From Pontiella desulfatans (GTDB lineage Bacteria > Verrucomicrobiota > Kiritimatiellia > Kiritimatiellales > Pontiellaceae): a stretch of DNA of 64,000 nt. Shown here piece after piece: positions 1 to 35,625 of this stretch. The stretch is from the NCBI RefSeq assembly GCF_900890425.1, contig NZ_CAAHFG010000002.1:248001-312000 (forward strand). Reading direction: 5' to 3'. A model generated the notes under the pieces. That model was not told the origin of the DNA. It made no database searches and was given only the letters and a program-made list of their open reading frames with translations. How positions within the stretch are numbered: position 1 is the first letter of the stretch; each line of letters opens with the position of its first letter. The position numbers and the translations under genes are program-made.

Positions 1-2
1 TA

Positions 3-2942
3 AATGATGCCCGCCTCATGGTCTTTATCGGCGAGCATGGTGCTAATGATATCTGGCTGGATAACGTTTGTCTCGAATCGATATCGAATCCGGGGGTGAA
101 CCTGCTTTCCAATGGCGATTTTTCCAATGGAACAACGGACTGGATATTCGCCAATACCAGTCCATCGACCGGCAGCGCTGCCGTCGTCGTTGACCCGGAC
201 GGTGCGGCCAGTGAACTGTTTTTTAATGTACTTTCCGATGACGGTGTAAACTGGCATCTGCGCCTCAGGCAGGAAGGCCTGGCGTTGAGCTCCGGGAAAA
301 CCTATCGTGTGAGTTTCGATGCGTGGGCCGAATCGAACCGCACCTTCCGGGCAAATATAAAAAGCGTCAGCCAAGGCGATGCCCTGAATTATGACGTGTC
401 GCTCAGCACGAATAGGACTATCTATGCGAGGGAATTTTCGGTGAGCCAACCCACCGCGGACGATTTCCGCCTCTCGTTCTTTTTCGGTGCCGCGGGCGAC
501 AACGATGTCTGGCTGGATAACGTATCCCTGGTAGAGGTCGATGCGAAGGGCGATCCAAACTGGATTCTGCAGGGCAGTGCCTTTTCCCTGCAGCCGGAGA
601 GAGGCGGCACGGTTTACCTGACCCGCTACCGCCTGCCCCTGATGAACTATGTGGACGCAGCCACCCGTATGTTCGATGTAGCCGAGTTCGCGTCGCACGC
701 AGTGGTTGCGCAGGCCGTTTCCGCTGGGCAGTCCTGTTCAATCAATACCGTCGGCCTGCTTCCCGGTTCCTACGACCTGGTGCTGGTCGACAACGGTATC
801 GTCGAGGCGGTGCATTCGTTCCATATGGCGTTCACTTCTCCGCCGGTGTCGCCGCACTATGCGGTGTCGGTGGAGGTCTCCGGACAGACGACTGACCTCT
901 CGACCTTTTATTCCTGCCGTCGGGCGGAATACATCCAGGACTGGGGGCTGGACGGGAAGAATTACGAAATTAAAACCTACGGGCCGAATACGAAGCAACC
1001 GGTCAATGCCCATTCCTGGGCGGGGGTTTCGACGGATGCCTATCCCATTACGGTGCGCGTCAAGGTGCTGCCTGCGGCCGAAGATGATCACATCGACGGC
1101 TCTCCGGGGATCACGCTGCCGCTCACGAGCGCCCATGTGCTGCCGTCTTCATACGAAATTCCCTGCTGGATCGAAGGAGCCGATACCATTGCCTTCACGC
1201 TGGATCGCCCGGAAAAGGTGATGGTGGTGCCCAACTATCACGATGCGATGTCGGTCTTCACCAATCAGGCGGTCGGGCATGTTCCGCTTCAGTCCTTTGA
1301 GGATACCTACACCGCCTCGACCATTCCGGACGATTTTAATGCTAACCAAGTTGTGGATCATCTGTCTGAAGGGTTCAAAAACCCGTTGGTCTTTCTGGGG
1401 CGCGGTCCGGAATCCTTTGTCTCCGAACTCGGGTTGAATAAAACCGATCCCGGCACGTTGGTCATCTCGCCCGGTGAACGCCCGACGCAGGCAGCGCTTT
1501 CGGCGGCAGACACCGTCTGGTTCGAGCCGGGCGGGCACGACCTGTCTCGCCTGGGCATGCGCCCGAATTACCGCACCTACATCAATGCGGGTCAAACCTA
1601 CTATCTGGAAGAAGGGGCCTATGTTGCCGCCGGGTTCAAGAAGAATGAAGCCTCAGGAACCGCCGATTGCCGCTTGGTCGGTCGGGGCACGGTTTCGGGC
1701 GTTAACCATTTCTGGGGCGGAGGCTCATACGATGAAAACAGCCTGGCAGTGGAAATTGATGTGATCGATGGTCTCGATTTTGTAGAGCGCGAGGGTTGGG
1801 GCATCAATGGCGGCGATTTGATCAGCGATATTTCCCTGCTGGGTGCGTGGCACGGCAACTGCGATGGCCTTGATTCGCTGGATCATTGCACCGTGCTCAA
1901 CAGTTTTATTGCCGCGCACGATGACAACCTGAAGCTGAACGATCACACGGTGGCTGAACATCTGGTGATCCATATGCTGGGGGTGAATGCGCATCCGATT
2001 ATGTTTAAGGAAATGTGGGACGATGTCACCTTTGCCAACGCGGTGGTCAAGGATGTGGATATTATCGCCAACATGAAGCGTCCCGTTCCGAACCATAGCG
2101 ACTGGGGGCGTCTGGAGGCTTCCGCCATCACCTGCCTGCAAACCCGCCATGTCTCGATAGAAGACGCCCTGTTCAGCGATATCCGCATTGAAACGCCGTT
2201 TCTTGCCCGTGTGGTGAGTCTCTACAACATGTACAGCGAAGGCGAGGATTGGCCGTACGTGCCGACGTGGCTGGATATCGATAACGTGAATAACCCTGCA
2301 TCGATCAACGGAATCACCTTTGAAAACATTACGGTCAATGCCCCGATGCTGGGTTGGCGCAACCTGCTGGGATCGGGTTTCGCCAATTCATTTTCCAACA
2401 TTTCATTTGTCAATCTGGACATTAACGGCGTGCGGGTCTCGGAGGCCAACAAAGACGACTATTTTGAAGTCTCGGGCTATGTCTTCGGCACCGACCCCGT
2501 GGATGGCGGCAGCAGCCGGGTTGAAATTTCCGACCCTGTGCGGAACCTGATGTTCCATGATTCGCTCTATTCAGCATGGGAAAATACATATGCTTTGGTT
2601 CAGGGGGCGGAAGGGGACGACGATGGTGATGGCGTGGCCAACCTGGCCGAGTTTGCGCTGGATGGAGATCCCAACGATCCGTTTAACCTCGGAACCCAGC
2701 CTGAGTTCCTGGCCGGCGCGGGCGGGTTCAGCTATGTCCACCCCGTGCTTGCCAAACGCAACCCGGGAATCAGCTATACGGTGGAAACGACCGACAACCT
2801 CGTTTCCAATGATTGGAAAACGACGGGATATACCGTATCGGGCACCAACGATCTCGACGGTGATTTCAACGCGGTCAGCAACTGGATATCTGCCGGTGTT
2901 GAAACACAACAATTTATCCGCCTGCGCATTGAGCAGGATTAA
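3..2942 (+). CDS. Secreted CBM4/9-like + GH28/GH49-like beta-helix glycosidase (5' end missing)
   Basis: The frame is open from the first bases of the window, so the true start lies upstream. The N-terminus holds the tail of one carbohydrate-binding-like module (ending GANDIWLDNVCLE) and a full second copy (about residues 27-180 from the first visible Met, ending AGDNDVWLDNVSLVEV), resembling CBM4/9 jelly rolls. A linker domain follows, then a right-handed beta-helix with AWHGNCDGLD and HDDNLKLND, which correspond to the NxDG and DD acidic motifs of clan GH-N (GH28/GH49). The half from LPLTSAHVLPSSYEIPC onward is homologous to the protein at 6267-8006. The last ~125 residues form a C-terminal module with a calcium-loop-like DDDGDGVANLAEFALDGDP stretch, also found in three other proteins here. 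The family is supported by motifs only and the substrate is unknown. Confidence 0.75.
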   Translation, partial: NDARLMVFIGEHGANDIWLDNVCLESISNPGVNLLSNGDFSNGTTDWIFANTSPSTGSAAVVVDPDGAASELFFNVLSDDGVNWHLRLRQEGLALSSGKTYRVSFDAWAESNRTFRANIKSVSQGDALNYDVSLSTNRTIYAREFSVSQPTADDFRLSFFFGAAGDNDVWLDNVSLVEVDAKGDPNWILQGSAFSLQPERGGTVYLTRYRLPLMNYVDAATRMFDVAEFASHAVVAQAVSAGQSCSINTVGLLPGSYDLVLVDNGIVEAVHSFHMAFTSPPVSPHYAVSVEVSGQTTDLSTFYSCRRAEYIQDWGLDGKNYEIKTYGPNTKQPVNAHSWAGVSTDAYPITVRVKVLPAAEDDHIDGSPGITLPLTSAHVLPSSYEIPCWIEGADTIAFTLDRPEKVMVVPNYHDAMSVFTNQAVGHVPLQSFEDTYTASTIPDDFNANQVVDHLSEGFKNPLVFLGRGPESFVSELGLNKTDPGTLVISPGERPTQAALSAADTVWFEPGGHDLSRLGMRPNYRTYINAGQTYYLEEGAYVAAGFKKNEASGTADCRLVGRGTVSGVNHFWGGGSYDENSLAVEIDVIDGLDFVEREGWGINGGDLISDISLLGAWHGNCDGLDSLDHCTVLNSFIAAHDDNLKLNDHTVAEHLVIHMLGVNAHPIMFKEMWDDVTFANAVVKDVDIIANMKRPVPNHSDWGRLEASAITCLQTRHVSIEDALFSDIRIETPFLARVVSLYNMYSEGEDWPYVPTWLDIDNVNNPASINGITFENITVNAPMLGWRNLLGSGFANSFSNISFVNLDINGVRVSEANKDDYFEVSGYVFGTDPVDGGSSRVEISDPVRNLMFHDSLYSAWENTYALVQGAEGDDDGDGVANLAEFALDGDPNDPFNLGTQPEFLAGAGGFSYVHPVLAKRNPGISYTVETTDNLVSNDWKTTGYTVSGTNDLDGDFNAVSNWISAGVETQQFIRLRIEQD

Positions 2943-2996
2943 GGGGGCGCGAACTTCCCGTTGTACCGACTTATGCACTATGCACCCGAGTTTTCT

Positions 2997-3116
2997 TCCA
3001 CAGAGCGCACAGAGACACAGAGGAACGATAGCTCCGTGCCTCAGAAATTGGTCGCTGTTCGCTCTCAATTATCTCTAGCGACGCGAAGCGAGTCTGTAAG
3101 ACAACCGGGTGGTGGA
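2997..3116. repeat. Dispersed intergenic repeat, copy 1
   Basis: This gap upstream of the sigma factor holds a CACAGAG/GACACAGAGG stretch followed by CTCTAGCGACGCGAAGCGAG and CGGGTGGTGGAAA. The same pair of blocks in the same order recurs at 12222-12310, and the second block recurs inverted at 27721-27761. No coding potential is apparent. It looks like a non-autonomous palindromic repeat family. Confidence 0.5.
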
Positions 3117-3173
3117 AAATCGTATTTTTATAATTTCCACTCCCCTAAGTCTTCTTGAATTACCTGGAGAGAG

Positions 3174-3809
3174 ATGCCCATAATGCCAATCCGTGATCAG
3201 AAGAAGGAGCGCGCTGTGGGCGAGGAGTGGGTAACGAGAAAATCATTGGTGATGCGGGCAAAAGCCGCGGACGATGCGGCGGCATGGGATGAATTCGTGA
3301 AATACTACGAGCGGTTCATTTTCCACCTGCTGCATGGAATGAATGTGCCGACGAACGATTTTGATGATCTCGTCCAAACCGTTCTGGTCAAGCTCTGGAA
3401 AAGCCTCGCGAGTTTTGATCATGAAAAAGCGCGCTTCCGCACCTGGCTGGGTGTGGTGGTGCGCAACGCGGTGTGGGACTATTTTGCCGAGGGGCAGCGG
3501 CGCGGTAAGCTGATGGAGAAAAATCGCGATTTTGTTGAAGTACTGGACGAAGCCCCGCCATCGGAAATCGAAGCCCGCATTGAGAAAGAGTGGGTGCAGT
3601 ATATTACCGAACTGGCCATGGAGCGGATCCAGAAGGTGTTTTCCGGCGAAGCGGTCAATGTGTTCACGATGAGCCTGGAGGATGTTCCTGCCAAAGAGGT
3701 CTCAAAAAAACTGAATCTTACTTTGGAATCGGTCTATACCCTGAAAAGCCGGGTCCGTGCACGATTTATCAAAGAGGTAAAAGCGCTGATGGATGAACTG
3801 GAAGGGTGA
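3174..3809 (+). CDS. ECF-type RNA polymerase sigma factor (pair 1)
   Basis: This 211-residue sigma-70 family protein has region 2 at about residues 44-104 (YYERFIFHLL, DFDDLVQTVLVKLWKSL, FRTWLGVVVRNAVWDYF) and a region 4 helix-turn-helix at about 158-205 (VSKKLNLTLESVYTLKSRVRARF). Regions 1 and 3 are absent, as in ECF factors. The start is set by GGAGAGAG just before ATG. It lies 150 bp upstream of a transmembrane Ser/Thr kinase in the same direction, an arrangement known in Planctomycetes and relatives. A close paralogue at 30470-31063 also precedes a kinase. It is a candidate reader of the TTTAG-N16-CGT promoters in this window; that link is inferred. Confidence 0.92.
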   Translation: MPIMPIRDQKKERAVGEEWVTRKSLVMRAKAADDAAAWDEFVKYYERFIFHLLHGMNVPTNDFDDLVQTVLVKLWKSLASFDHEKARFRTWLGVVVRNAVWDYFAEGQRRGKLMEKNRDFVEVLDEAPPSEIEARIEKEWVQYITELAMERIQKVFSGEAVNVFTMSLEDVPAKEVSKKLNLTLESVYTLKSRVRARFIKEVKALMDELEG

Positions 3810-3824
3810 CGCGGCGGAGCCGCG
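3810..3824 (+). terminator. GGA-loop hairpin directly after sigma stop codon
   Basis: A perfect 6-bp stem, CGCGGC-GGA-GCCGCG, begins at the base after the sigma stop codon. There is no T-run here, but the paralogous sigma gene has an equivalent hairpin with the same GGA loop at its stop codon, followed by Ts. It may attenuate transcription or stabilise RNA between sigma and kinase. Confidence 0.4.
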
Positions 3825-3825
3825 G

Positions 3826-3949
3826 AATGATGAATGTAGAATTTAGAATTAAGAAGGGTAGAACTCAGACGGCGTTGGCCTTTTTCTTAAAAAAATAAGG
3901 CGGTCGCAGACCCGAAATTCTACATTCTTAAATCATCATTCATAATTCA
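3826..3949. repeat. Inverted repeat element between sigma and kinase (copy 1)
   Basis: Outer imperfect arms (GATGAATGTAGAATTT at left; AAATTCTACATTC ... ATCATTCAT at right) flank a core at 3857-3916 that contains ACTCAGACGGCGTTGGCC and GGTCGCAGACCCGAA. The reverse complement of this core matches 31110-31163, the equivalent gap of the second sigma/kinase pair. It fills most of the 150-bp gap and has no open frame of note. Confidence 0.65.
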
Positions 3950-3959
3950 AAAGGACTGT

Positions 3960-5918
3960 ATGGATAACGCAAAGAACGATGCCCAATCAAAGCTGGACGC
4001 GCTCTACTATCTGGCGGAAGACTATGAGCAGGTGGAGGAAAAGGAGATCAGTCCCACCCTGCATGCGCTGTCCGAGGTGACTGAACGGTATCATTCCGCC
4101 GAGCCGATCGCTTCGGGGGGCATGAAGCAGATCTACAAGGTCTACGATGCCCGGGGAAAGCGCCATCTGGCGATGGCCATGCTGCATGCCGACGCGCCCC
4201 TTGAGTTATGCGATCCCTTTATTCATGAAGCGTGGCTGACGGCCCTGCTTGACCATCCGAACATTATCACCATTCACGATGTCGGGGTGCGCAACGGTCG
4301 TCCTTATTTTACGATGGATTTGAAAACCGGGAATACCTTGCGGGAAGTGATTGAGAAATTACGTGACCGCGACCGTAAAACACTCGATCACTATCCCCTC
4401 GAAACCCTGCTGCAGCTGTTCCTCAAGGTCTGCGATGCGATGTCGTATGCCCATTCGGTCAATGCGCTGCATCTTGATCTGAAACCGGCCAATATCCAGG
4501 TGGGGGAGTTCGGTGAGGCGCTGGTCTGCGACTGGGGATTGGGAAAAATGGTCGGACGCGAAGATGGGCTTGAACTGGATCGCCGCCTGCTGCATCCCGA
4601 CCTGCTGAGTTCGGGCACCCTGTTCGGGCAGGTGAAGGGAACGCCGGGGTATATGGCGCCGGAGCAGGTGGAGGAGGGCGGCGAGCGCGATATGCGCACC
4701 GATGTCTATGGACTGGGCTGCACCCTTTACTCCATCCTGACGCTGGAACGCCCGCTCGACGGAGAAGCGAAAGAGATTCTGGAGAAGACCCGGTCGGGCG
4801 CTATCGTGCCACCGAGGCAGCGCAAACCTGAAATGGATATTCCCAGGAGTCTGGAGGCGGTGGTCATGAAGGCGCTGTCGGTCGATCCGTCTAAACGGTA
4901 TCAAACCGTTGAGGCGTTGAGGCGGGAGGTGCATCGCTACCTGACCGGCTTTGCCACGCAGGCTGAGAATGCCGGGGTGCTGACGCAGTTCAGTCTCTTT
5001 TTCCGGCGCAACCGGCGCTTTTGCCTGACGATCCTGGTTTCGGTTGTGGCCCTGCTGTGCGGCATAGCGTGGGCCATGGTTCAGCTGACGGAAAAAGAGC
5101 GGGTTGCAAGCAAGGCGCGGCACGAGGCGGAGCGGACGCTGAGCCTCTACCAGGCCGGCAAGACCGAGCTTGAAAAAATGTCGTTCGAGAACGCCCGTTC
5201 CGTGGTGAAAGTCGTGAATCAGCTTCACCTCTTAGGCGATGAGATGCGAACTGAACCCCTGCTCGAGGCCGCCCTGGCAAGCGAACCGGACAGTCCGGTT
5301 TTTCAACGTGCGATGGGCATGCACTATTTTTATCTCCATCAGTTTAATGCGGCGCTGCCCTATTTTTCCGAGCCGGGGGATGAAATTGCCCAGGCAGCCC
5401 GTTATTATGCCGGGATCAGTCCAGACGACAAGCTGTTGTCTACAGATCAGGTGATCGATGTGCTGGACCGCATTAAGAACATGCCCGACGACCAAAAAGC
5501 GTTGGCCTTTACCATTGCCTATCTGAAAAGGCAGGGCCGTCTGGAAGAGCGAGCCCGGGTGGTGGAAGCCTATCTGCGCCTCCTGAATCCCGAATGGACG
5601 GACGGTTGGTTTGAATATAATATGGCCGAAAGCCGGTTAAAGATCGGCGGAGAGGGATTGAAAAAAATATCCACAACGCACACCACGTTACAGTCGCTGC
5701 AGCCTCGTATTCTGGATGTCAGTGGCTCCGAGGTCGACCGGATGTGGCGGGAGCGGACGTTGGCTGTCGAGACCGTGGATGTGCGGGGGTGCCCGATGGA
5801 GAATGTCCGGTTTCTAAAGGGCTTTACCCACTTGCGAACCCTCATCGTTTCGCCGGGACAATTCACGGAAAAAGAACTGAATATCCTCAACGATTGGGTG
5901 GAGATCGTGGAAAAGTAG
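3960..5918 (+). CDS. WNK-like transmembrane Ser/Thr protein kinase (pair 1)
   Basis: This 652-residue protein has a kinase domain at about residues 43-335, one membrane segment at about 353-375 (FCLTILVSVVALLCGIAWAM), then a helical TPR-like region and a short leucine-rich tail. The alphaC Glu (E90), HLDLKPAN (D173, K175, N178), DWG (D191) and APE are present. The VAIK lysine is replaced (LAMA, A73), and the Gly-rich loop reads ASGGMKQIYK with K56 in place of the third Gly. In eukaryotic WNK kinases a lysine at that loop position replaces the VAIK lysine, so catalysis may be retained. The HRD arginine is Leu, so it is a non-RD kinase. It probably acts at the cytoplasmic membrane and may control the upstream sigma factor; this is inferred from pairing. 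Its paralogue at 31240-33219 has the same changes. Confidence 0.9.
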   Translation: MDNAKNDAQSKLDALYYLAEDYEQVEEKEISPTLHALSEVTERYHSAEPIASGGMKQIYKVYDARGKRHLAMAMLHADAPLELCDPFIHEAWLTALLDHPNIITIHDVGVRNGRPYFTMDLKTGNTLREVIEKLRDRDRKTLDHYPLETLLQLFLKVCDAMSYAHSVNALHLDLKPANIQVGEFGEALVCDWGLGKMVGREDGLELDRRLLHPDLLSSGTLFGQVKGTPGYMAPEQVEEGGERDMRTDVYGLGCTLYSILTLERPLDGEAKEILEKTRSGAIVPPRQRKPEMDIPRSLEAVVMKALSVDPSKRYQTVEALRREVHRYLTGFATQAENAGVLTQFSLFFRRNRRFCLTILVSVVALLCGIAWAMVQLTEKERVASKARHEAERTLSLYQAGKTELEKMSFENARSVVKVVNQLHLLGDEMRTEPLLEAALASEPDSPVFQRAMGMHYFYLHQFNAALPYFSEPGDEIAQAARYYAGISPDDKLLSTDQVIDVLDRIKNMPDDQKALAFTIAYLKRQGRLEERARVVEAYLRLLNPEWTDGWFEYNMAESRLKIGGEGLKKISTTHTTLQSLQPRILDVSGSEVDRMWRERTLAVETVDVRGCPMENVRFLKGFTHLRTLIVSPGQFTEKELNILNDWVEIVEK

Positions 5919-5925
5919 TCCCATC

Positions 5926-5954
5926 TGTTAAGGTTGTCGTTCTTCTTTCGTATA
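5926..5954 (+). promoter_or_regulatory. ECF-type promoter variant (TGTTAAG-N17-CGTAT)
   Basis: This differs from the eight exact sites by A for T in the -35 core and by one extra spacer base. It lies upstream of the small disrupted gene at 5999 and the beta-helix enzyme at 6267. Confidence 0.5.
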
Positions 5955-5998
5955 AGTAGGAAACAACTTCCAACGGAAGGGCGGTCTCCATGAAAAAA

Positions 5999-6256
5999 AT
6001 GAAATATTCAGTGCCCCGGCAGGGCGATTCCTTTGTGCAGAATCACGGAGAGTGATCGGAGGGTTATCTGGCCACACCGTATGGGGTGGTAGCAGCTTTT
6101 TCCGGTGATCGTTTGGGCAATGTTGAAAGCCGTTTGAGTTTTATTCATCAGGGCGAGATGTATGTCCGGATCTGGGATTACCGTTTGCCAGAGGATGCGT
6201 TGACTCTTCTTGTCCGAAAGATGGTTGAGGAAGTGGTCGGGTATATTGATTTTTAG
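5999..6256 (+). pseudogene. Small gene interrupted by in-frame TGA
   Basis: An ATG with an upstream GGAAGGGCGG opens a frame reading MKYSVPRQGDSFVQNHGE, then TGA at 6053-6055, then a further 66 codons without a stop (SEGYLATPYGVVAAFSG... ending EEVVGYIDF, TAG at 6254-6256). The second part looks protein-like, with balanced hydrophobic and charged residues. The simplest reading is an 85-codon gene with a nonsense mutation. I recognise no family. Sequencing error or TGA recoding are alternatives; I see no evidence for a SECIS element. Confidence 0.5.
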
Positions 6257-6266
6257 TGGGCAGGAC

Positions 6267-8006
6267 ATGAACAGGAAAATAAACATGAATATTAAGAAGG
6301 AAGTCGCCGGAATTGGAATCGGTGTTGTTGCATTGTTCACAACCGCGATCACAGGATGGGCCGGGGTGTGGACGTATGATGTGCCGGGTGGCGGGGCATT
6401 GCGTTCTTCCGATTATGAGGTGACCGTAATTCAGAATGGGGAACCCAAGTCCAGCTTTGTCTATCAGAGTGAAGGTTTTGCAACCTATCCCCGATTGCGG
6501 GAAAACGGCTCGTTGGATCAAATGGTGACGATTCCGCACAAGGGGCCGGTAAAGCATTCCCACTCCATCTTTTCATTTGACGGAACGGTGACGGTGCGGG
6601 TGAAGGTTAAGCCGGGTGCAAAGCATATTACGCTGCCGCTTAAAAGCGCCAAGGTGCTGCCGTCCTCCTATGATATTCCCTGCCGGATTGAGAACGGCGA
6701 TACGATTGTCTTTACACTGGACCGGCCGGAAAAGGTGGCGATTCTCCCGAATTATGACCAGGTCTGGAACACGTTCGTTAATATGGGGAAAGGCCATGTT
6801 CCGATCCAGACGTGGGATGTGGACTATGGCGTGGAAAGCAAACGGAAGGACTACCACGGACGCACGCTTTCCAATGCGCTGGAGGAAGGCTACGCGAATC
6901 CGCTGATTCTTTCCGCCCTCCCGCCCGAGACGCGGGTTCCTGATCCGGAAAAACAAAAAACGCTCTTTGTGAATCCGGGTGACCGGCTGGATGAGGATGA
7001 AATGCTGGCCTATGACGTCATCTGGTTTAAGCCGGGGATTCATGACCAATCCCAGATGGGCTATGCGCCCTTTTTTCAGACGCGCATTAAGCGCGGACAA
7101 ACGGTTTATATCGAAGGCGGCGCCTATGTGCTGGCACGCTTTAAACGCTATCACGATAAGGAGGCTGGCCCGACCGCCATCATCGGCCGTGGTGTGATTT
7201 CGGGGGCGAAGCACCTCTGGATACACAGCTTTTCCGAGGCCAGCCAGCTGATTGATATCGACATTGTTTCGGGCATCACCCTGACGGACCGGGCCGGTTT
7301 CAGCATCTACAGCAGCCGCCTGATTGAAGACGTCACTCTGGTGGGAGCATGGCACGGCAATTGTGACGGGCCGGATTATTCAGACAACAGTGTTATAAGG
7401 AACTGCTTTTTCATGTCGCACGACGACAGCCTGAAAATCAACCACAATACCAAGGCCAAACACATCGTGCTCTGGCAGGCTACCAACGCGCATGCCCTGA
7501 TGGTGAAGGAAACCTATCGTTCGGATACGCTCATGGCCGATAGTGTGGTGGAGGATATCGATATCATCACCTATTTCAAGGATCCCAATGTGGCCCGGGG
7601 CGACTGGCCCCGGCAGGGCATGGGGGCGATTGCCTGCGTTACAGCGGTGCCATTCACCATTCGCAACTTTACATTTCGGGATATCCGGATCGAGTCGCCC
7701 TATCTCTATCGCGTCTTCAATGTCTACAACCTGAACACCGGCGAGGTGAGTCCGGGCTGGTTCATGCCGACCACCGACGAAAGCCACTCCAAAATCGATG
7801 GCATGCATTTTGAAAACATTACCGTCACATCACCGTTGATTGCCTATCGGTCGCAGTTGGGGTCGGGGCACGAAAACGCCGTCAAAAACCTGACGTTCAA
7901 AAACATTGTGATCAACGGCACCTGCGTGACTGAAGAGAACAAAGAGCAGTTCTTTGATATTCAGGAGGATCGGATCGACGGTCTCTCTTTTTCCTGTGAA
8001 CGCTGA
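6267..8006 (+). CDS. Secreted GH28/GH49-like beta-helix glycosidase
   Basis: This protein of about 580 residues has a signal peptide (NIKKEVAGIGIGVVALFTTAITGWA) and a beta-helix. AWHGNCDGPD and HDDSLKINHN are the NxDG and DD acidic pairs expected of GH28/GH49-type inverting hydrolases. An N-terminal beta-sandwich includes LPSSYDIPCRIENGDTIVF and LDRPEKVAILPNYD, nearly repeated in the first gene of the window. The start may be 6267, or 6285, which has a better spaced AGGAAA ribosome site. It lacks the CBMs and C-terminal module of its paralogue. A promoter variant lies upstream at 5926. The substrate is not deducible; a sulfated galactan backbone or side chain is likely from context. Confidence 0.8.
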   Translation: MNRKINMNIKKEVAGIGIGVVALFTTAITGWAGVWTYDVPGGGALRSSDYEVTVIQNGEPKSSFVYQSEGFATYPRLRENGSLDQMVTIPHKGPVKHSHSIFSFDGTVTVRVKVKPGAKHITLPLKSAKVLPSSYDIPCRIENGDTIVFTLDRPEKVAILPNYDQVWNTFVNMGKGHVPIQTWDVDYGVESKRKDYHGRTLSNALEEGYANPLILSALPPETRVPDPEKQKTLFVNPGDRLDEDEMLAYDVIWFKPGIHDQSQMGYAPFFQTRIKRGQTVYIEGGAYVLARFKRYHDKEAGPTAIIGRGVISGAKHLWIHSFSEASQLIDIDIVSGITLTDRAGFSIYSSRLIEDVTLVGAWHGNCDGPDYSDNSVIRNCFFMSHDDSLKINHNTKAKHIVLWQATNAHALMVKETYRSDTLMADSVVEDIDIITYFKDPNVARGDWPRQGMGAIACVTAVPFTIRNFTFRDIRIESPYLYRVFNVYNLNTGEVSPGWFMPTTDESHSKIDGMHFENITVTSPLIAYRSQLGSGHENAVKNLTFKNIVINGTCVTEENKEQFFDIQEDRIDGLSFSCER

Positions 8007-8024
8007 TGCAAGGTGAAAATATAT

Positions 8025-9944
8025 ATGTGGATTAAAGCAATAGGGTTGGTTGGTGTGCTGGTTTGGGCATCGGCTGTGCAGGCTTCGCTGGAGCCGGGTG
8101 CAAAAGCGGTGCGTCAAAACGCTGAATCGTTGGGGCTGAATCGTGATCGCTTCGTCCGGGGCGAGGTAGTTGAGGTTAAGCCGTCCCGATCGGGAATGCT
8201 CTGCCTGACCGGATGGTCGCATCCTAAGCTGGATGCCAAGACCATCGCCCGACTGGCAACTGAAACGGAGTTTGGCACATTCAGAAAAGTCCGAAAGGGT
8301 GACCGGGTTGGATTCAAAACCGCAGGTCTCCGTCCCGGTGTTTATAACGTCAGTCTGATCGATGGCTCGGAAATCAAAGCGGCAAAAGAGATCGTGATCG
8401 CTTACCCGGAAAACTATGTCTTCAAGCTGAACGATCCACTGTTGCATGGGATTAAAAACGCGTGGAACGGCCATCCGAAAGCGCAGGAATACGACAAGCA
8501 CTATTCCGTGGTTACGGTTCAGTCGCAAATCGGCTGGGCGGAGCTGCAACCGGAAAGGGATCGGTTCGATTTTTCAAAACTGGATACGCTGCTGGCCTGG
8601 AGTGCCTACACTCAGAAACCCGCCATCTTTAAATTCAATGCCCCCGCACCGGAATGGATTTTTGACTATGTCGCGCACGTCGGCGGCAAATCGCCATTGG
8701 ATGACCAGGGCCGGGGCGGGGGGACGAGCCGCCGCGAAAAGGCTAAAGCGCCGCAATTCTGGTCGCCCGCGTATAAGCAATTCTATCATGAGATGATTCA
8801 GGCATTGGCCGCCCATGTGGCCGCATCGCCTCACCGTAAATGGTTCCTCGGGCTGCGGGTGCAGCCCAACGCCTTTAACGAGGAGGCTTGGCACTATAGG
8901 TTTAACGGACAGGAAATGCAGATTGCGGGTATTTCTCCAGACCGCGGCACCTGGATTCCTCCGCGCAACGGCGATCCGATCTATCCGCCGCTGCTGGAGG
9001 CGGATAATTACAAAGAGGCGAAGCAATATTTCCGTGATGTGATCGGGTTTTATCAGGAAGCGTTTCATCCATTGGGCATCTATTGCTTCCTCCGCCCCTA
9101 TCTGGAGGTGGATCAGGATTTAAACCTGAACCTGTCCGGCTACTATGCCAATGCCTATACCGTCTGCATGGGAACGGATGCTGCGGCGTCCCGGCCAAAG
9201 CCGATTTCCCCTCGCGCACAGGTCTATAAAAAATATACCCGTGAATTGAAGAAGGGGGCTTTTCATGAAGATACCTATGCCAGTTTCAATGGCGATGGAT
9301 GGAATGCAAAGCACGGAAAGAAAATGAACTATAACGTGTCACCGCGCAGCCCTGAAAAAGAAATCTATTGGCGGCAGTTCCTCAAACTCTATGAAGGCGT
9401 TACCATGAGCGCATGGGGCGGTACAGAACTCTTCCGACTCGATATTCCGGCTTATCAGGCGGCGCTCGATGTGTTCATGAAATATGCCGGCGGAGAAATG
9501 GATCCGGCCAAAACTGAGCACGCCTGGATGGTGTTCGCGGGCTACTGCGACTGGAGTGGGAAAAACATCCAGCTGCGCAACGTTGGATACTGGCTTACGG
9601 AGGATGATTCCTCAAAAACCGAAACCGTTGTGGATGCCTCCGACGACCATCGCGCCTTCATGCTTGGATCAATCAGGGAAAAGGAAACCACGCTTTCTGT
9701 CGCATCGGAATTCCGCCAGTCCCATATGGGGAAATCGGCAAAGGTTTCCATCGAATGGCTGGCCGAACCGGGCGATGCATGGGAGGTGTTTGCCGACGGC
9801 AAACGGGTTGGAGGGGCGCGGGGAACCCATAATGGATTCCAGATCGATGAGTTCGAACTTCGGGCACTCCCGAGCCGTATTGCGATCAGGAAACAACGGG
9901 GCAATGCAAAGTTCCATAGGGTGGAAGTCGGTTTGGATGGATAG
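8025..9944 (+). CDS. Secreted TIM-barrel (GH-A/GH42-like) hydrolase
   Basis: ATG at 8025 is preceded by AAGGTGA at good spacing and gives signal peptide MWIKAIGLVGVLVWASAVQA. A GTG at 8013 is the alternative start. After an N-terminal beta domain, the segment VVTVQSQIGWAELQPERDRF, followed by FDFSKLDTLLAW, is the typical first barrel strand of GH-A clan enzymes such as GH42. The C-terminal part (about residues 500-640) is a beta domain with MVFAGYCDWSGKNIQLRN. A remnant of a paralogue of that segment lies at 20169-20345. It lies 18 bp after the beta-helix gene, so the two are probably co-transcribed. I cannot assign a GH family or place catalytic Glu residues with confidence. Confidence 0.75.
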   Translation: MWIKAIGLVGVLVWASAVQASLEPGAKAVRQNAESLGLNRDRFVRGEVVEVKPSRSGMLCLTGWSHPKLDAKTIARLATETEFGTFRKVRKGDRVGFKTAGLRPGVYNVSLIDGSEIKAAKEIVIAYPENYVFKLNDPLLHGIKNAWNGHPKAQEYDKHYSVVTVQSQIGWAELQPERDRFDFSKLDTLLAWSAYTQKPAIFKFNAPAPEWIFDYVAHVGGKSPLDDQGRGGGTSRREKAKAPQFWSPAYKQFYHEMIQALAAHVAASPHRKWFLGLRVQPNAFNEEAWHYRFNGQEMQIAGISPDRGTWIPPRNGDPIYPPLLEADNYKEAKQYFRDVIGFYQEAFHPLGIYCFLRPYLEVDQDLNLNLSGYYANAYTVCMGTDAAASRPKPISPRAQVYKKYTRELKKGAFHEDTYASFNGDGWNAKHGKKMNYNVSPRSPEKEIYWRQFLKLYEGVTMSAWGGTELFRLDIPAYQAALDVFMKYAGGEMDPAKTEHAWMVFAGYCDWSGKNIQLRNVGYWLTEDDSSKTETVVDASDDHRAFMLGSIREKETTLSVASEFRQSHMGKSAKVSIEWLAEPGDAWEVFADGKRVGGARGTHNGFQIDEFELRALPSRIAIRKQRGNAKFHRVEVGLDG

Positions 9945-10040
9945 GCAGACGGGCATATTCAGTGCCCGCAGATCACATAGATTAACACCGATATATCTGG
10001 GAAAACATACCTGGGACGAAAAAATTATATTTTTTGCTGC

Positions 10041-10068
10041 TGTTAAGGTGGCGGTAGGGCATTCGTAT
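10041..10068 (+). promoter_or_regulatory. ECF-type promoter variant (TGTTAAG-N16-CGTAT)
   Basis: This has the same 16-base spacing and CGT -10 element as the eight exact sites, with one -35 difference. It lies 76 bp upstream of the GH127-like gene. The gap before it (9945-10040) also holds a hairpin GGGCA-N7-TGCCC and a CAGATCACATAGATTAACACCGAT repeat-like stretch. Confidence 0.6.
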
Positions 10069-10144
10069 CCCTATTAAAGGTCAAGGACGCGAATTTGTGT
10101 GCGCACAGGGATCTTGCCTGGAATTTTATCATTAGGAGAAACGG

Positions 10145-12169: not shown

Positions 12170-12221
12170 TATTAAGCCTAATTAAAAAATGTTCACCTCG
12201 GGATGCTCACGAGATAAATTT

Positions 12222-12310
12222 TAACCACGAAGACACTAAGTTCACAAAGCTTAGTGTTCTTTGTGAAATTGATCGCTTGCTCTCAGTTATGAGCGAAGCG
12301 GGTGGTGAAA
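12222..12310. repeat. Dispersed intergenic repeat, copy 2
   Basis: TTAACCACGAAGACACTAAG is followed by two interleaved inverted repeats (CACTAAG-N9-CTTAGTG and TTCACAAAG-N9-CTTTGTGAA) and then GCTCTCAGTTATGAGCGAAG and CGGGTGGTGAAA. The last block is shared with 2997-3116 and, inverted, with 27721-27761. The first block resembles 22329-22403. It may also act as a terminator between the GH127 and GH110 genes. Confidence 0.55.
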
Positions 12311-12322
12311 CAAAGGCAGTAT

Positions 12323-14011: not shown

Positions 14012-14100
14012 CCGTGGAATTATGTACGTGCTTCAGCTGGTGCTTTGTGAAATGGAGCCTATTTTCTTACGGCCCAAGCCTTTCGGAAATTGGATGAACT

Positions 14101-14120
14101 GTGAGATCTTTTGAGATCAC
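14101..14120. promoter_or_regulatory. Imperfect dyad upstream of transporter operon
   Basis: GTGAGATCTTTTGAGATCAC, 20 bp before the transporter start, has outer GTGA/TCAC arms and a GATC repeat. It may be an operator. No TTTAG-N16-CGT promoter is present upstream of this operon, so it is probably regulated separately. Confidence 0.3.
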
Positions 14121-14140
14121 TTTATTAAGGAGATGTTGAG

Positions 14141-15232
14141 ATGACTGAATTGATGTTGCCGATTATGATTGTTGTGTTGGCCAGTGTTTTTCAGGGCACA
14201 TTTGGCATCGGAATGAAATATGTCAAACCGATGAGCTGGGAAGCCTGGTGGGTTATTCAGTCTGTTGTTGCCATGTTACTGTTCCCTCTAATATGGGCAC
14301 TAATTGTGGTTCCAGACTTATTCATAGTCATTTCAGCAGCTCCCATGAATGAAGTTATTGCGGGCGCGACCATGGGCTTTCTCTGGGGTATCGGCGGCAT
14401 CATGTTCGGCGTCTCCGTCGGCTATATCGGCATGTCGCTCACCTACGGCATCGTTATGGGCGGCTGCGGCATCGCTGCCACCATCATCGCGCTCATACAA
14501 GGAGCCGACAGCATTGTGCCCGCGAGCATCCCGTACACCATCCTCGGCCTCGTCCTCTACGCGCTCGCCCTCGTGGTCGTGACCATCGGCGGCCTGAAAC
14601 GCGACAAGAAACTCGCAGCGGACGGCAAGGAACTCGTGGGCATCAAAAAAGGCGCGGAGTTCAAGAAAGGACTCATCATTGCAGTGGTTTGCGGTTTGCT
14701 CTCTTCGCTACTGTTCATTGGATTCAATAACACCATGGGAATCGGGAAAATCGCCGAAGCTCACGGCGCCATCGTTCGAAACACGGCGCTGGCTCGCTGG
14801 GTTGTTGTTCTGCTCGGTGCGCTGATCATGAACCTCGGTTACGCGGTGATCCTTCTGATCAAAAACAAGAAGGTCATCGCTGAGAACACCGGCGGCGTTG
14901 GCAAAGCGCTCGCGTGGGCGGTCGTCACCGGTCTGCTCTGGTTCGCCGCGCTCGGAACCATGGGTCAGGGCAGCGCCATGATGGGCGATATTGGAGCCGT
15001 CATCGCGACGCCTATTTTCCTCGCCCTCTCGCTGATCGTCAGCAACATCGCGGCGGTCATCACCGGCGAATGGAAAGGCGCGGGAAAAGCGCTGAACTAC
15101 GTTTTCGTTGGCGTCGCGCTGATCGTGCTCGCGGCCGCGGCGCTCTCCTTCGCCGGCACCTTCAAGGCCGAGGAATCCGCCGCGAACGCGGTCGCCCCGA
15201 CTGAAATAAATAAGGGAACTCTCCATGATTGA
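14141..15232 (+). CDS. RhaT-like sugar:proton symporter
   Basis: This 363-residue, highly hydrophobic protein has about ten predicted membrane helices. The segment FQGTFGIGMKYVKPMSWEAW and the later MGFLWGIGGIMFGVSVGYIG and MSLTYGIVMGGCGI resemble the L-rhamnose-proton symporter RhaT family. AAGGAG precedes ATG. It is the first gene of a tightly packed seven-gene operon ending at 20137, so it probably imports the sugar that the operon degrades. The substrate need not be rhamnose, since no rhamnose isomerase, rhamnulokinase or rhamnulose aldolase gene is present. Confidence 0.8.
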   Translation: MTELMLPIMIVVLASVFQGTFGIGMKYVKPMSWEAWWVIQSVVAMLLFPLIWALIVVPDLFIVISAAPMNEVIAGATMGFLWGIGGIMFGVSVGYIGMSLTYGIVMGGCGIAATIIALIQGADSIVPASIPYTILGLVLYALALVVVTIGGLKRDKKLAADGKELVGIKKGAEFKKGLIIAVVCGLLSSLLFIGFNNTMGIGKIAEAHGAIVRNTALARWVVVLLGALIMNLGYAVILLIKNKKVIAENTGGVGKALAWAVVTGLLWFAALGTMGQGSAMMGDIGAVIATPIFLALSLIVSNIAAVITGEWKGAGKALNYVFVGVALIVLAAAALSFAGTFKAEESAANAVAPTEINKGTLHD

Positions 15233-29570: not shown

Positions 29571-30473
29571 ATGAGCAAGAGTCCATACAACCCCGAAATC
29601 CATCATCGCCGGTCGATCCGGCTGAAGGGGCATGATTATGCCGGGGGCGGGTTGTATTTTATCACAATTTGCGCCCACAGGGAATTCATCGCGACCATGC
29701 ATGGAAATCCATTCTTTGGTGCAACATGCATATCGCCCATTCAGGAGATCATTAAGGCCGAATGGAAAAAAACGGCTGAATTGCGTCCGTATGTTCGGTT
29801 GGGTGAAATGGTGGTTATGCCTGATCATTTCCATGCATTGATTGCGTTGAAGGGGGGGCATGCGCCATTGGGGGATGTGGTCGGGGCATTCAAGGCGGCG
29901 GTTAGCCGCGAAATCCACCGTAGGGGCGACATGCATGTCGCCCGTACTGTACGGATATGGCACCGCAATTATTATGAAATGATTGTACGCAGTGCGGATG
30001 CCGAGAAGAAGATTGCCGATTATATTCGGATGAATCCGTGGCGGTGCGTGCAGCAGTTCGGCAATGGATTGCGCGGAATGGGTAATCCGGCGCTTTGGAA
30101 TTTGGACAAACTGGGCGTGTTATGCAGCCGGAACGCCCCGCGCCCCAGGAGCATTAAAAATGCAGGGGTTTATTTGGGTGGATTCCATTCGTCCATGGAA
30201 AAAGAGATTTTTGCGAAGCTGTTGGAGCTGAAGAAACCGGTCATTTGGTGTCCGGCCTGGGGATTGGAAAAGGCGGCATTGATGCCGGGGGTGAGCGAAG
30301 CCTTAGAGGCCAATCGAATGCTGATTCTGGAAATGAAGAATCGCGAGGGTAATCTTGTGGCGGCGGAGCAGCGCAACCGTTTTGTAATTGAGTCTGCCGA
30401 TGAGCTGTGGCTTCCGCATATCACGCGCGGCGGCATGCTGGATCGCCTGTTGGCGGAAAGGAAGCCGGCATGA
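29571..30473 (+). CDS. RAYT-type Y1 transposase fused to DprA/SLOG-like domain
   Basis: The start at 29571 gives 300 residues. The N-terminal ~165 residues are a REP-associated tyrosine transposase: HDYAGGGLYFITICAHREF, MVVMPDHFHALIAL (H86-F-H88 metal site) and RIWHRNYYEMIVR (candidate nucleophile Y134 or Y135). The C-terminal ~130 residues read LDKLGVLCSRNAPRP, GVYLGGFHSSMEKEIFAKLL, KKPVIWCPAWGLE and FVIESADELWLPHITRGGML, a Rossmann-like fold most like SLOG/DprA proteins. The stop overlaps the ECF sigma start by ATGA. A perfect 20-bp palindrome lies in the gene just before the catalytic Tyr. It probably acts on REP-type palindromes; linkage to a sigma factor is unusual. Confidence 0.8.
   Translation: MSKSPYNPEIHHRRSIRLKGHDYAGGGLYFITICAHREFIATMHGNPFFGATCISPIQEIIKAEWKKTAELRPYVRLGEMVVMPDHFHALIALKGGHAPLGDVVGAFKAAVSREIHRRGDMHVARTVRIWHRNYYEMIVRSADAEKKIADYIRMNPWRCVQQFGNGLRGMGNPALWNLDKLGVLCSRNAPRPRSIKNAGVYLGGFHSSMEKEIFAKLLELKKPVIWCPAWGLEKAALMPGVSEALEANRMLILEMKNREGNLVAAEQRNRFVIESADELWLPHITRGGMLDRLLAERKPA
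29924..29943. repeat. Perfect 20-bp palindrome in the RAYT gene
   Basis: GGGCGACATGCATGTCGCCC, flanked by CCGTA on the left and TACGG on the right, is self-complementary and encodes RGDMHVA in the RAYT frame. Related ACATGCATATCGCCC sequence occurs about 200 bp upstream in the same gene. It resembles a REP target palindrome. Confidence 0.75.
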
Positions 30474-31063
30474 GCGAAGAGTGGAATACAAGGCAGTCAC
30501 TGCTGATCCGGGCGAAGGATCCGACCGACGAGGAGGCTTGGGCGGATTTTGTAAAGTATTACGAACGCTTTATCTATCACCTGCTGCACCGCATGAATAT
30601 CCATGCGGCTGACTTTGATGATATGGTTCAGGTGATTCTGGTGAAGCTATGGAAGAATCTTCAGAAGTATGAAAAGCATGAGGCCAAGTTCCGCACCTGG
30701 CTGGCGCTCGTGGTTCGCAATGCGGTGTATGATTATTACAAAGCTGAGCAGCGACGGGGTAAGGTGATCGCGAGTGATGTCGAACTCGATGAATCGGTGC
30801 AACCCTCCGAGGGGTCGGATCTGGAAACGATCATTGAGAAAGAGTGGGAACTGTACATGACAAACTTTGCGCTCGAGCGGATGCGCGGGATTTTTTCAGC
30901 AACTGCGGTGCAGGTGTTTGAGTTGAGTCTGACAGGAAAGGCGGCCAAGGAGATTGCAGGGCAGCTTAAGATTACTGTTGATTCGGTCTATACCCTTAAA
31001 AACAGGGTAAAAGCGCGTTTTATCAAAGAGATCGGAGCGATCATGCGAGAGGTGGAGTTTTAG
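30470..31063 (+). CDS. ECF-type RNA polymerase sigma factor (pair 2)
   Basis: ATG at 30470 overlaps the RAYT stop (ATGA), giving a 197-residue protein. Region 2 contains YYERFIYHLLHRMNIHAADF, DDMVQVILVKLWKNL and FRTWLALVVRNAVYDYY; region 4 contains AAKEIAGQLKITVDSVYTLK. It is colinear with the sigma factor at 3174-3809, so the two sigma/kinase pairs arose by duplication. Translation is probably coupled to the transposase-like gene. Confidence 0.92.
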   Translation: MSEEWNTRQSLLIRAKDPTDEEAWADFVKYYERFIYHLLHRMNIHAADFDDMVQVILVKLWKNLQKYEKHEAKFRTWLALVVRNAVYDYYKAEQRRGKVIASDVELDESVQPSEGSDLETIIEKEWELYMTNFALERMRGIFSATAVQVFELSLTGKAAKEIAGQLKITVDSVYTLKNRVKARFIKEIGAIMREVEF

Positions 31064-31239: not shown

Positions 31240-33219
31240 ATGCAAGAAACTAAAACCCTTCCAATCAACCCCCTGGTGCAGGACTTTTATCGCATGGCCG
31301 AGGAGTATGACGGCATCGATACGGAGGATATTAACCCTTCGTTGACCGATCTCTCGCAGGTGACGCAGCGCTACCAATCGCCGGAGGTACTTGCTGAAGG
31401 GGGAATGAAGCGGATTTATAAGGTTTATGATGCGCGCGCAAAGCGCGATCTTGCGCTGGCGATGCTGCGTGAAGATGCGCTGGAAGATCTGTGTGATCCA
31501 TTTATTCACGAGGCCTGGCTGACAGCACGGCTGGATCATCCCAATATTATCACCATTCATGATGTCGGGGTGAAGGAGGGAAAAAACCCCTATTTTACCA
31601 TGGACTTGAAACAGGGGTTGACGCTGCGGGAACTGATCGAAAAACTGCATGCCGGCGATCGAAAAATATTGGCTCAATATCCTTTGGAAGCGTTGCTTCA
31701 GATATTCCTGAAGATTTGTGATGCGGTTTCGTATGCCCATTCCGTTCATGTGATACATCTTGATCTGAAGCCGGCCAATATTCAGATCGGGGAATATGGA
31801 CGGGTCTTGGTCTGCGACTGGGGGCTGGGCCGGGTGCTGGGCGATGGGGACGATCCGCAGGAGCTGGATCGTATGCTGTTTAACCCCGATATGCTGGGGT
31901 CGGACGATTTGTACGGACAGTTTAAGGGGACGCCCGGGTATATGGCTCCGGAACAGTTGAAAGAGGATGGGGCGGTTGATGAACGGTCTGATATCTACGG
32001 GCTGGGCTGTATTCTCTATTCGCTGCTTACGTTTTTGCGGCCGCTGACCGGTGATGACGAGGAGATTATTCAACGGGCAAGAGATGGTGCGGTGGTCTCC
32101 CCGATCAAGCGGGCGGCCGAACGCGCTATCCCCGTCGCACTCAATGCGGTAACGATGAAAGCATTGGCGGTGGAACCGTCGAAGCGGTATGCCTCGGTGG
32201 ATAAACTGAGAACTGAGGTCCATCGCTATTTGACCGGATTTGCCACGGAGGCGGAGAATGCCGGGGTGTTTAAGCAGTTAAACCTGTTTTACCGCCGCAA
32301 CCGTCGTTTTTGCCTGACGATTCTATGTTCTTTGCTGGTGGTCGCCATCGGCGCCGCCTGGTCATTCCGCAAGCTGAGTGATAAGGAGCGGGCTGCTTCC
32401 GAGGCGCGGGAACATGCAGAACGTACGCTTTCGCTTTATCAGGCCGGCCAGACGGAACTTGAACGGATGAGTTTCGAGAATGCGGAATCCATTGTGCAAC
32501 TGGCGGAACGCTACCAGTTTCATGGCGATTATAACCGGGCAGAGGCAATCCTGAAGGCTGTGCTTCTGGCGGATGATTCAAATCAACTACTGCATCGGGA
32601 ACTTGGGAAACACTATTTTATCGATCAGGATTTCAATGCAGCTTTACCTCATTTAGATCGAGGGGTTTTTCGTAAAGACGATGTGTGCGAGACGGTCCTT
32701 CTGTATGCCGGGCTTACGGGCGACCAGAAGAAGCTGACGGCCGAGCAGATGGTTGATATTATACATCGCATACATGTTCACGAACCACTGGTGTTGCGTT
32801 TGGTATTACAGGATCAACGGAATCGTTTTGATCTCGAGGAGCGGGCGGAAATTATTGAGGCTTACCTTCGTATCATTAATCCGGATTGGGTCAATGGTTG
32901 GTTTGAGTATGATGCCGGTTCCAGTGTTCTTCGGCTGGGAGGCAAAGGGCTCCGCAGGGTGTCGACCCAGAAATCGGTTCTGATTGGACTTAATCCCCGG
33001 GTTCTGGATTTCAGTGGTTCAGAAGTTGATGAGCTTTGGAAGGAAGTGGATATCGCTGTTGAAGTTCTGGATGTTCGTGGAACCCGCATGGAAACCATCT
33101 GGTTTTTGAAGCGCTTTGTTCATCTCCGGGAACTCATCATCACGCCGGGACAGCTTTCCTCCGAAGAGCTTAGAAAGCTGCCGGAACGGGTTCAGGTGAT
33201 AGAACGCCCATATCCGTGA
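31240..33219 (+). CDS. WNK-like transmembrane Ser/Thr protein kinase (pair 2)
   Basis: This 659-residue paralogue of the kinase at 3960-5918 has the same order: kinase domain (about 44-335), one membrane segment (FCLTILCSLLVVAIGAAWSF), TPR-like helices and a leucine-rich tail (LREL...LSSEELRKL). The Gly-rich loop is AEGGMKRIYK with K57 at the third Gly. The VAIK position is LALA (A74). E91, HLDLKPAN, CDWGLG and GYMAPEQ are kept. Conservation of both the loop Lys and the Ala in two diverged copies argues for a selected WNK-type active site rather than decay. Its likely partner is the sigma factor upstream. Confidence 0.9.
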   Translation: MQETKTLPINPLVQDFYRMAEEYDGIDTEDINPSLTDLSQVTQRYQSPEVLAEGGMKRIYKVYDARAKRDLALAMLREDALEDLCDPFIHEAWLTARLDHPNIITIHDVGVKEGKNPYFTMDLKQGLTLRELIEKLHAGDRKILAQYPLEALLQIFLKICDAVSYAHSVHVIHLDLKPANIQIGEYGRVLVCDWGLGRVLGDGDDPQELDRMLFNPDMLGSDDLYGQFKGTPGYMAPEQLKEDGAVDERSDIYGLGCILYSLLTFLRPLTGDDEEIIQRARDGAVVSPIKRAAERAIPVALNAVTMKALAVEPSKRYASVDKLRTEVHRYLTGFATEAENAGVFKQLNLFYRRNRRFCLTILCSLLVVAIGAAWSFRKLSDKERAASEAREHAERTLSLYQAGQTELERMSFENAESIVQLAERYQFHGDYNRAEAILKAVLLADDSNQLLHRELGKHYFIDQDFNAALPHLDRGVFRKDDVCETVLLYAGLTGDQKKLTAEQMVDIIHRIHVHEPLVLRLVLQDQRNRFDLEERAEIIEAYLRIINPDWVNGWFEYDAGSSVLRLGGKGLRRVSTQKSVLIGLNPRVLDFSGSEVDELWKEVDIAVEVLDVRGTRMETIWFLKRFVHLRELIITPGQLSSEELRKLPERVQVIERPYP

Positions 33220-34554: not shown

Positions 34555-35625
34555 ATGATAACAAACCGTGTGTATAAGGGTGTGGGTGCCGTGTTGCTTG
34601 CAGTATGTATGAGTGCTACTGCTCAGATGTCCTTTGATGATGCCGAGGGGGACCATTTGTGGACTAATTCGGCCAACTGGAATACCGCTATTCCCGGTTC
34701 GACCGATGATGCGGTTCAAACTGCTACTGACGGCACCACGCTGATCCTGGATTCAACGGCAAGCGTTGCGACGTTCAATAACGGAAACAACAGTACCAGC
34801 ACCTTTAACATTGTAAGCGGAGGCAATCTGACCACCAGTGGTCGATTCGATATCGGCAACTCCGGGAGTGCGGGGGTTCTTAATGTGGATGGAGGATCAC
34901 TGAGCGCAGGAGGCGATTTGCAGCTCGGCCGGTATGGATCCCGGACGGGTTTAGTTAATCTTAACTCCGGCAGCATCACGGCCAATGGGCAGACTCAGCT
35001 TGGCGGGTGGAACTCGGGGATCGGTCAACTGACAATTAACGGGGGAATCTACACCGCTAATGACAGATTCAGGGTCGGAGTCACTGGAGCCGGAATGTTG
35101 ACCATGAACGGCGGAACGCTGAACATGACGGGAACATGGGGCACGGGAAATATGGAGATCGGTAATGGTGCGGGTGACGGGTTGCTCGTTCTGAATGGAG
35201 GAACGATCTCTGTCAATATGCTGACCATGGACAGCGATGGGGCCGGGAGCGCCCGTCTGGAGGTCAATGGTGGTTTGCTGGATATTCAGAACCAATGGGG
35301 CGAAAGTTTTAACATTGCCAACGGCGATGCTGAATTTTTTGTTGGAGAGGGCATTGTTACGCGGGCCGGTAATACCATCAGCGGATTCACCAATGCAGTC
35401 GAAAACGGATATATCACGTGGGACAGTGCAAGCACCACGATGCAGACTGAAAACTGGGATGTAAGCTACACGAACGGAACCGGCAGCATTCTTTTCGTCG
35501 ATTACAATGACGCAAATGCCGGAAAGACCACCATGTGGGCAGCCATTCCAGAACCGACCGCGTTGGGTTTGATTGGATTCGTAGGGGGCTCGCTTCTATG
35601 GATTCGTCGGATCTTTACACTGTAA
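34555..35625 (+). CDS. PEP-CTERM beta-strand-repeat surface protein
   Basis: This 356-residue protein has a signal peptide (GAVLLAVCMSATAQ), a domain opening DHLWTNSANWNTAIPGSTDD shared with its neighbours, repeated NGG beta-strands (GVLNVDGGSLSAG, GMLTMNGGTLNM, GLLVLNGGTISV), and a canonical C-terminal sorting signal: IPEPTALGLIGFVGGSLLWI followed by RRIF. In PEP-CTERM systems an exosortase recognises this signal; none is in the window. Binding or biofilm-matrix roles are possible. AAAAGGGAACC precedes ATG. Confidence 0.85.
   Translation: MITNRVYKGVGAVLLAVCMSATAQMSFDDAEGDHLWTNSANWNTAIPGSTDDAVQTATDGTTLILDSTASVATFNNGNNSTSTFNIVSGGNLTTSGRFDIGNSGSAGVLNVDGGSLSAGGDLQLGRYGSRTGLVNLNSGSITANGQTQLGGWNSGIGQLTINGGIYTANDRFRVGVTGAGMLTMNGGTLNMTGTWGTGNMEIGNGAGDGLLVLNGGTISVNMLTMDSDGAGSARLEVNGGLLDIQNQWGESFNIANGDAEFFVGEGIVTRAGNTISGFTNAVENGYITWDSASTTMQTENWDVSYTNGTGSILFVDYNDANAGKTTMWAAIPEPTALGLIGFVGGSLLWIRRIFTL

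Follow-up and report, generated by a model that had tools for sequence, protein, structure and literature searches.

The window analysed here, a stretch of 64,000 nucleotides from Pontiella desulfatans, encodes two membrane Ser/Thr kinases, K1 and K2, that lack the VAIK lysine and carry a lysine in the glycine-rich loop instead. Our preferred reading, to which we give a probability of roughly three in four, is that they belong to a Verrucomicrobiota-specific clade of PknB-like membrane kinases in whose ancestor the lysine moved, and that each kinase switches a partner sigma factor for a local locus of surface or secreted proteins.

Two window kinases with a relocated lysine

K1 (3960..5918, + strand; 652 aa), supported as an open reading frame, by Pfam Pkinase and by an AF2 model, and its 659-aa paralogue K2 (31240..33219, + strand) both lie where an earlier note on this DNA had placed two kinase reading frames. 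In K1, the kinase domain spans approximately residues 42-337 and is followed by a transmembrane segment, read from the sequence at about residues 355-377, after which a long helix, a TPR-like region and a short LRR-like region are predicted. Against Pfam Pkinase (PF00069), K1 and K2 score 107.8 and 113.5 bits, respectively (gathering cut-off 31.7), and against the PASTA-kinase equivalog NF033483 they score 179.6 and 191 bits, below the cut-off of 450; in both proteins the C-terminus is TPR/LRR-like, in place of PASTA. A fold search with K1 returned PknB as the closest among the 50 matches listed (Z 32.9, rmsd 1.5, 255 aligned), a listing that included no WNK chain, and the matches of its C-terminal region to the PDB were TPR-like and weak (best E 0.0035).

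The glycine-rich loop of K1, ASGGMK (4110..4127, +; A51-S52-G53-G54-M55-K56), ends in the relocated lysine K56 (codon 4125-4127), and its beta3 strand reads LAMA (4167..4178, +; L70-A71-M72-A73), with Ala73 (codon 4176-4178) replacing the VAIK Lys. The catalytic loop is HLDLKPAN (4470..4493, +), with Leu in place of the HRD Arg, and the equivalent of DFG is DWG (4530..4538, +). K2 shows GGMK ending in K57 (codon 31408-31410) and LALA ending in A74 (codon 31459-31461). The sequences can be summarised as PIASGGMKQIYK...RHLAMAML...HLDLKPAN...CDWGLG for K1 and VLAEGGMKRIYK...RDLALAML...HLDLKPAN...CDWGLG for K2. Once the WNK1 kinase-domain letters had been verified against PDB 6cn9, alignment set K56/K57 against K233, A73/A74 against C250, and E90 against the alphaC Glu268, which is kept. 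No other Lys, which by the earlier note would have refuted its reading, was found at the normal beta3 position, either in the alignment or in the full-length AF2 model of K1 (mean pLDDT 86.5), since the model places K56 at the start of beta2 and beta3 at residues 68-75, with alphaC at 81-96. The earlier note had described a lysine at the third-glycine position of the loop, an Ala at the VAIK Lys and a match to the relocated lysine of WNK1, and on each of these points it is borne out; its statement that the other catalytic residues remain holds for the alphaC Glu and the catalytic residues, but not for the HRD Arg, which is lost, nor for DFG, which is DWG.

Coupling of the loop lysine with the beta3 alanine

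The source genome encodes about 25 kinase domains, 17 of which (K1, K2 and 15 paralogues) combine the loop Lys with a beta3 Ala, and the others have a loop Gly or a degenerate loop with the beta3 Lys present. The same combination was found across Lentisphaeria, Kiritimatiellales and a few other Verrucomicrobiota assemblies, in members from the sea, sheep colon and goat rumen. After Lentisphaera marina and a related MAG had been added, the Verrucomicrobiota set comprised 133 distinct loop-Lys sequences, and the co-variation of the two sites, which the earlier note had singled out for a survey of homologues, was found throughout, with 132 sequences having Ala at beta3, 1 having Val and none having Lys. 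The sole kinase with the Val (L296, GGMK...LIMV) is from L. marina. Profile matches numbered 62 in L. marina IMCC 11369 (G242), where the loop Lys occurs in 31/40 sampled loci, and 47 in Lentisphaeraceae S10.bin.24 (G240); these 5.3-Mb genomes display a very large radiation of such kinases.

All the relatives checked in which the loop residue is not Lys retain the beta3 Lys. Five apparent loop-Gly/beta3-Ala exceptions (L003, L067, L075, L140 and L252) proved to be alignment slips, the beta3 Lys being present on inspection. When the loop-Lys kinases are set against their 11 nearest VAIK sisters, just two differences are fixed in the domain: K56 stands where the sisters have Gly, and A73 where they have Lys. 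Outside the phylum, the 30 best matches examined from 45 genomes all had a loop Gly, Ser or Ala with the beta3 Lys, and none had the loop Lys. The literature searched yielded no description of this loop-Lys bacterial kinase family.

A single origin, independent of WNK

In a tree computed from the alignment less its three trait columns, a single branch (SH-aLRT 87) separated the loop-Lys kinases from all others, and in a more careful tree that included PKA and CDK2, whose letters were checked before entry, the loop-Lys clade was supported at 93/85. Its sister in the latter tree is the pair L040/L153, which has GGMG, VAMK and already HLD. These trees show the loop-Lys kinases to be a single clade within the PknB-like bacterial kinases, with one origin. 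The move being a single event, the 133 sequences therefore represent long conservation and not 133 independent co-variations.

That WNK and the bacterial clade share one lysine-move event, through common descent or gene transfer, is scarcely credible. An earlier joint-clade test, in which the WNK1 row was 47% aligned and the free search incomplete, did leave such a clade unrejected (p-AU 0.81); with full WNK1, PKA and CDK2, however, forcing WNK1 together with the bacterial loop-Lys clade was rejected (p-AU 0.00039), WNK1 joined the eukaryotic kinases PKA and CDK2 at 100/99, and the nearest sisters of the bacterial clade retain GGMG/VAMK. Because the joint clade is rejected, the phylogenetic analysis shows the lysine move to be convergent with that of WNK and independent of it. 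Four extant kinases (L040, L153, L295 and L345) have GGxG, the beta3 Lys and HLD, a combination resembling the condition that preceded the move, which probably came after the loss of the HRD Arg.

Active kinase or pseudokinase

WNK has been called the only functional ePK family without the VAIK lysine, the charge having moved from position 72 to position 55 (PMC1821047), and the positions changed in the bacterial clade are exactly this 72/55 pair. All the other catalytic residues are invariant over deep divergence and the two lysine sites are perfectly coupled, which strongly supports both the WNK-like placement and catalytic activity; the loop-Lys kinases are very likely active, and the loop Lys probably reaches ATP. 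The main rival holds that catalysis was lost with the beta3 Lys, that the loop Lys is incidental, and that the protein is a pseudokinase scaffold that binds the sigma factor. A missing VAIK Lys is indeed the usual mark of a pseudokinase, conserved bacterial pseudokinase families are known (PMC12599244), and the HRD Arg is also gone, its position being occupied by Leu in 127 of the 133 sequences, Arg in 5 and Phe in 1. Yet the alphaC Glu, the HxD Asp, the catalytic-loop Lys and Asn and the DxG Asp are, like the loop Lys, each present in 133/133 sequences that are, at the median, 42% identical to one another (minimum 29%), whereas several motifs have decayed in most of the families covered by the same review (PMC12599244); we thus regard a pseudokinase as unlikely. 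DWG likewise stands for DFG in 133/133. The published signatures of the ActPs1-3, DLHK, GLW, CP1 and DYD pseudokinases (e.g. HRD/DFG loss, beta3 Arg), compared here by their descriptions in PMC12599244 alone, are unlike the combination of beta3 Ala, HLD and DWG with a loop Lys. Since the kinases are HLD (non-RD), they probably need no phosphorylation of the activation loop.

The chloride pocket

The WNK1 pocket residues F283, L299, L369 and L371 correspond to I/V, F, W and L, respectively, in the loop-Lys kinases; the L369 equivalent is Trp in 133/133, the L299 equivalent Phe in 129/133 and the L371 equivalent Leu in 122/133. We take F283 and L299 to belong to the site at which WNK1 binds chloride. 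The pocket also includes L369 and L371, and the WNK1 L369F mutant is reported to be insensitive to chloride (PMC13397483). The pocket Trp and Phe are also present in canonical VAIK relatives; being common to these sisters, they are ancestral, and, with the same Trp in the VAIK relatives, no pocket residue changes in step with the relocation of the lysine. In inactive WNK1 the HRD Arg pairs with the alphaC Glu (PMC1821047), and this partner is missing in the loop-Lys kinases.

A halide or osmotic sensor of the WNK type, in which chloride bound in the vacated beta3 space would inhibit the kinase, would fit the position of the lysine, the marine habitat of some members and the mostly conserved L371 equivalent. 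Against it, three pocket residues differ, with Trp at the very site where Phe reportedly makes WNK1 insensitive, the VAIK sisters carry the identical Trp, and the lysine has also moved in gut and rumen members. Halide sensing consequently finds little support, because the pocket differs, its Trp and Phe are ancestral and the HRD Arg is missing; we consider it very improbable, and the chloride or osmotic role that the earlier note had thought conceivable is unsupported.

Partner ECF sigma factors

Directly upstream of each window kinase lies a gene for an ECF-type sigma-70 factor, scoring over the TIGR02937 cut-off in both cases: the K1 partner (211 aa) at 3174..3809 (+) and the K2 partner at 30407..31063 (+), whose real start is likely the ATG at 30467. 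The K1 partner is 1 of 17, as all loop-Lys kinases of the source genome (17/17) are paired one-to-one with an ECF sigma of one subtype, in orders that vary (same strand upstream or downstream, or convergent) and with one partner, that of L187, about 1.3 kb off. A genome search with a profile of these sigmas gave 21 matches, of which the best 17 are the partners, the next 3 lie beside three canonical kinases and 1 is weak; the subtype was absent from 17 random 20-kb windows. The distances among the kinases track those among their sigmas (matrix correlation r = 0.88, p <= 5e-5), a co-divergence that co-duplication alone could produce. Among named relatives, a sigma neighbour was found at 16/25 loop-Lys loci versus 4/52 controls (Fisher 4e-7), and for the short (~380 aa) soluble forms of Victivallales none was found within 1.2-3 kb. 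In the source genome, an ECF sigma of a more distant kind lies 0.5-0.8 kb upstream of each of three canonical kinases (L003, L011 and L012; C1:210-212 kb and 831-849 kb), which make up a separate kinase-sigma group.

Control of an ECF sigma by a neighbouring STK is an experimentally known mechanism (PMC8999054, PMC13147305). The partner sigmas keep acidic, DAED-like residues in region 2.2 (e.g. DFDD, DVDD, DTED), and for this reason the ECF43 mechanism, in which a phospho-Thr stands in for lost acidic residues, is not directly transferable. At the N-terminus they also share a TRx[ST]L motif whose Thr is invariant (residues 21-24 of the window sigma at 3174-3809), and this Thr is a possible phosphosite or structural cap. 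TRx[ST]L is seen in two sigma partners of canonical kinases as well.

The kinases might instead be active and WNK-like with their main targets elsewhere, sigma adjacency reflecting a co-duplicated regulatory cassette, as the soluble Victivallales forms without a sigma neighbour and the retained acidic region 2.2 would allow. We see some chance of this, albeit a small one, given that the pairing is one-to-one in 17/17 cases across several gene orders and that the sigma subtype is exclusive to the pairs.

Neighbouring surface and secreted-protein loci

Downstream of K2 lies a gene for a PEP-CTERM protein (34555..35625, +) with the tail IPEPTALGLIGFVGGSLLWIRRIFTL, a possible output of the K2/sigma pair, and another PEP-CTERM gene is found near K1, just upstream of the window. 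The source genome holds 98 PEP-CTERM genes over the cut-off and a single exosortase (C1:4372379-4373125). A PEP-CTERM gene occurs within 10 kb of 12/17 loop-Lys kinases, where 3.5 are expected and 0/5000 circular shifts reach 12, as against 0/7 canonical kinases; the other 5/17 loop-Lys kinases have no such gene within that distance. Large secreted proteins with Big_9/cadherin-like (Ig/cadherin-like) domains are over-represented beside the loop-Lys kinases as well. Carbohydrate-active enzymes (GH42-like, GH127 and GLAA-B) are encoded downstream of K1, and window positions 1-16000, around this kinase, contain CBM4_9, GH42-like, GH127 and GLAA-B beta-barrel/beta-helix genes. An enrichment of polysaccharide loci near the kinases was considered and rejected, sulfatases being at background (4/100 versus 4/102).

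A second C-terminal tail, VTN/VSN...(E/Q)F(I/L)RLxVE, was noted on large secreted proteins near loop-Lys kinases, its strict pattern appearing in 6/17 kinase windows and 0/17 random ones. It ends the ORF at 35764-38181 and a large ORF ending near 2942, both in the window, and is also seen near L204, L206, L207 and L210; it is possibly another sorting or domain signature.

Proposed mechanism and comparison with known systems

According to the mechanism that we propose, the ATP-contacting lysine left beta3 in the common ancestor of the clade and came to occupy the third-Gly position, where beta2 begins. There, like K233 of WNK1, it most likely holds the phosphates of ATP and forms a pair with the alphaC Glu. 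A signal would be received by the C-terminal TPR/LRR-like region, the kinase would phosphorylate or otherwise switch its partner sigma, and the sigma would in turn switch on the nearby surface or secreted-protein locus, often with a PEP-CTERM protein. The kinases would be WNK-like in their working at the ATP site, yet they lie outside the WNK family. With less assurance, we lean towards the broader view that they are a second independent active Hanks-type family with a loop lysine, founded once in Verrucomicrobiota, present in 17 copies here and at least 31 confirmed ones in L. marina, and with a large branch devoted to controlling ECF sigmas one-to-one for surface and secreted-protein loci.

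What is new here is the one-to-one pairing of kinase and sigma with co-divergence, and the proximity to PEP-CTERM genes. That bacteria have made the lysine move independently shows the route to be repeatable and uncouples the geometry of the lysine from the sensing of chloride, and it thus becomes testable which WNK features need which residues; with living sisters of the GGMG/VAMK/HLD type, the two-residue switch can be tested step by step. As motif-based annotation would call loop-Lys kinases dead, a large active Verrucomicrobiota kinome may be overlooked. Finally, with 17 kinases each matched to its sigma, a single genome provides a natural collection in which to study the specificity of signalling.

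Four known systems invite comparison. (i) Like the eukaryotic WNK1-4, the bacterial kinases carry the catalytic Lys in the loop, at the third Gly, where beta2 begins (K233 in WNK1), lack the beta3 Lys, and keep the alphaC Glu, the catalytic Asp and the DxG Asp; they differ in having Ala at beta3 (132, Val 1) where WNK1 has Cys250, usually Leu for the HRD Arg, and DWG where WNK has DLG, and in being membrane-anchored, with an unconserved chloride pocket and a separate origin. (ii) The PknB-like kinases (NF033483, PRK13184 PknD) are the best match in both sequence and fold (PknB, ~32% identity) and share the kinase-TM-sensor architecture, but PknB has the beta3 Lys, a Ser at the third-Gly site, HRD and PASTA sensors. 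(iii) As in the STK-ECF pairs (ECF43 EcfP/PknT and EcfK/PknS; ECF59, 61, 62, 217 and 283), a membrane STK gene adjoins an ECF sigma gene, and phosphorylation of EcfK and EcfP has been reported (PMC8999054, PMC13147305); PknS, however, is canonical, with GxGGMG and standard motifs (PMC13147305), and the partner sigmas differ from ECF43 in keeping acidic DAED-like residues and carrying the N-terminal TRx[ST]L. (iv) In the CAK-chloro kinases (Kannan 2007, PMC1821047) the positive charge has likewise moved from position 72 to 55, but there it is an Arg and not a Lys, position 72 is Met and the alphaC Glu is replaced by Phe, in a different kinase-like family.
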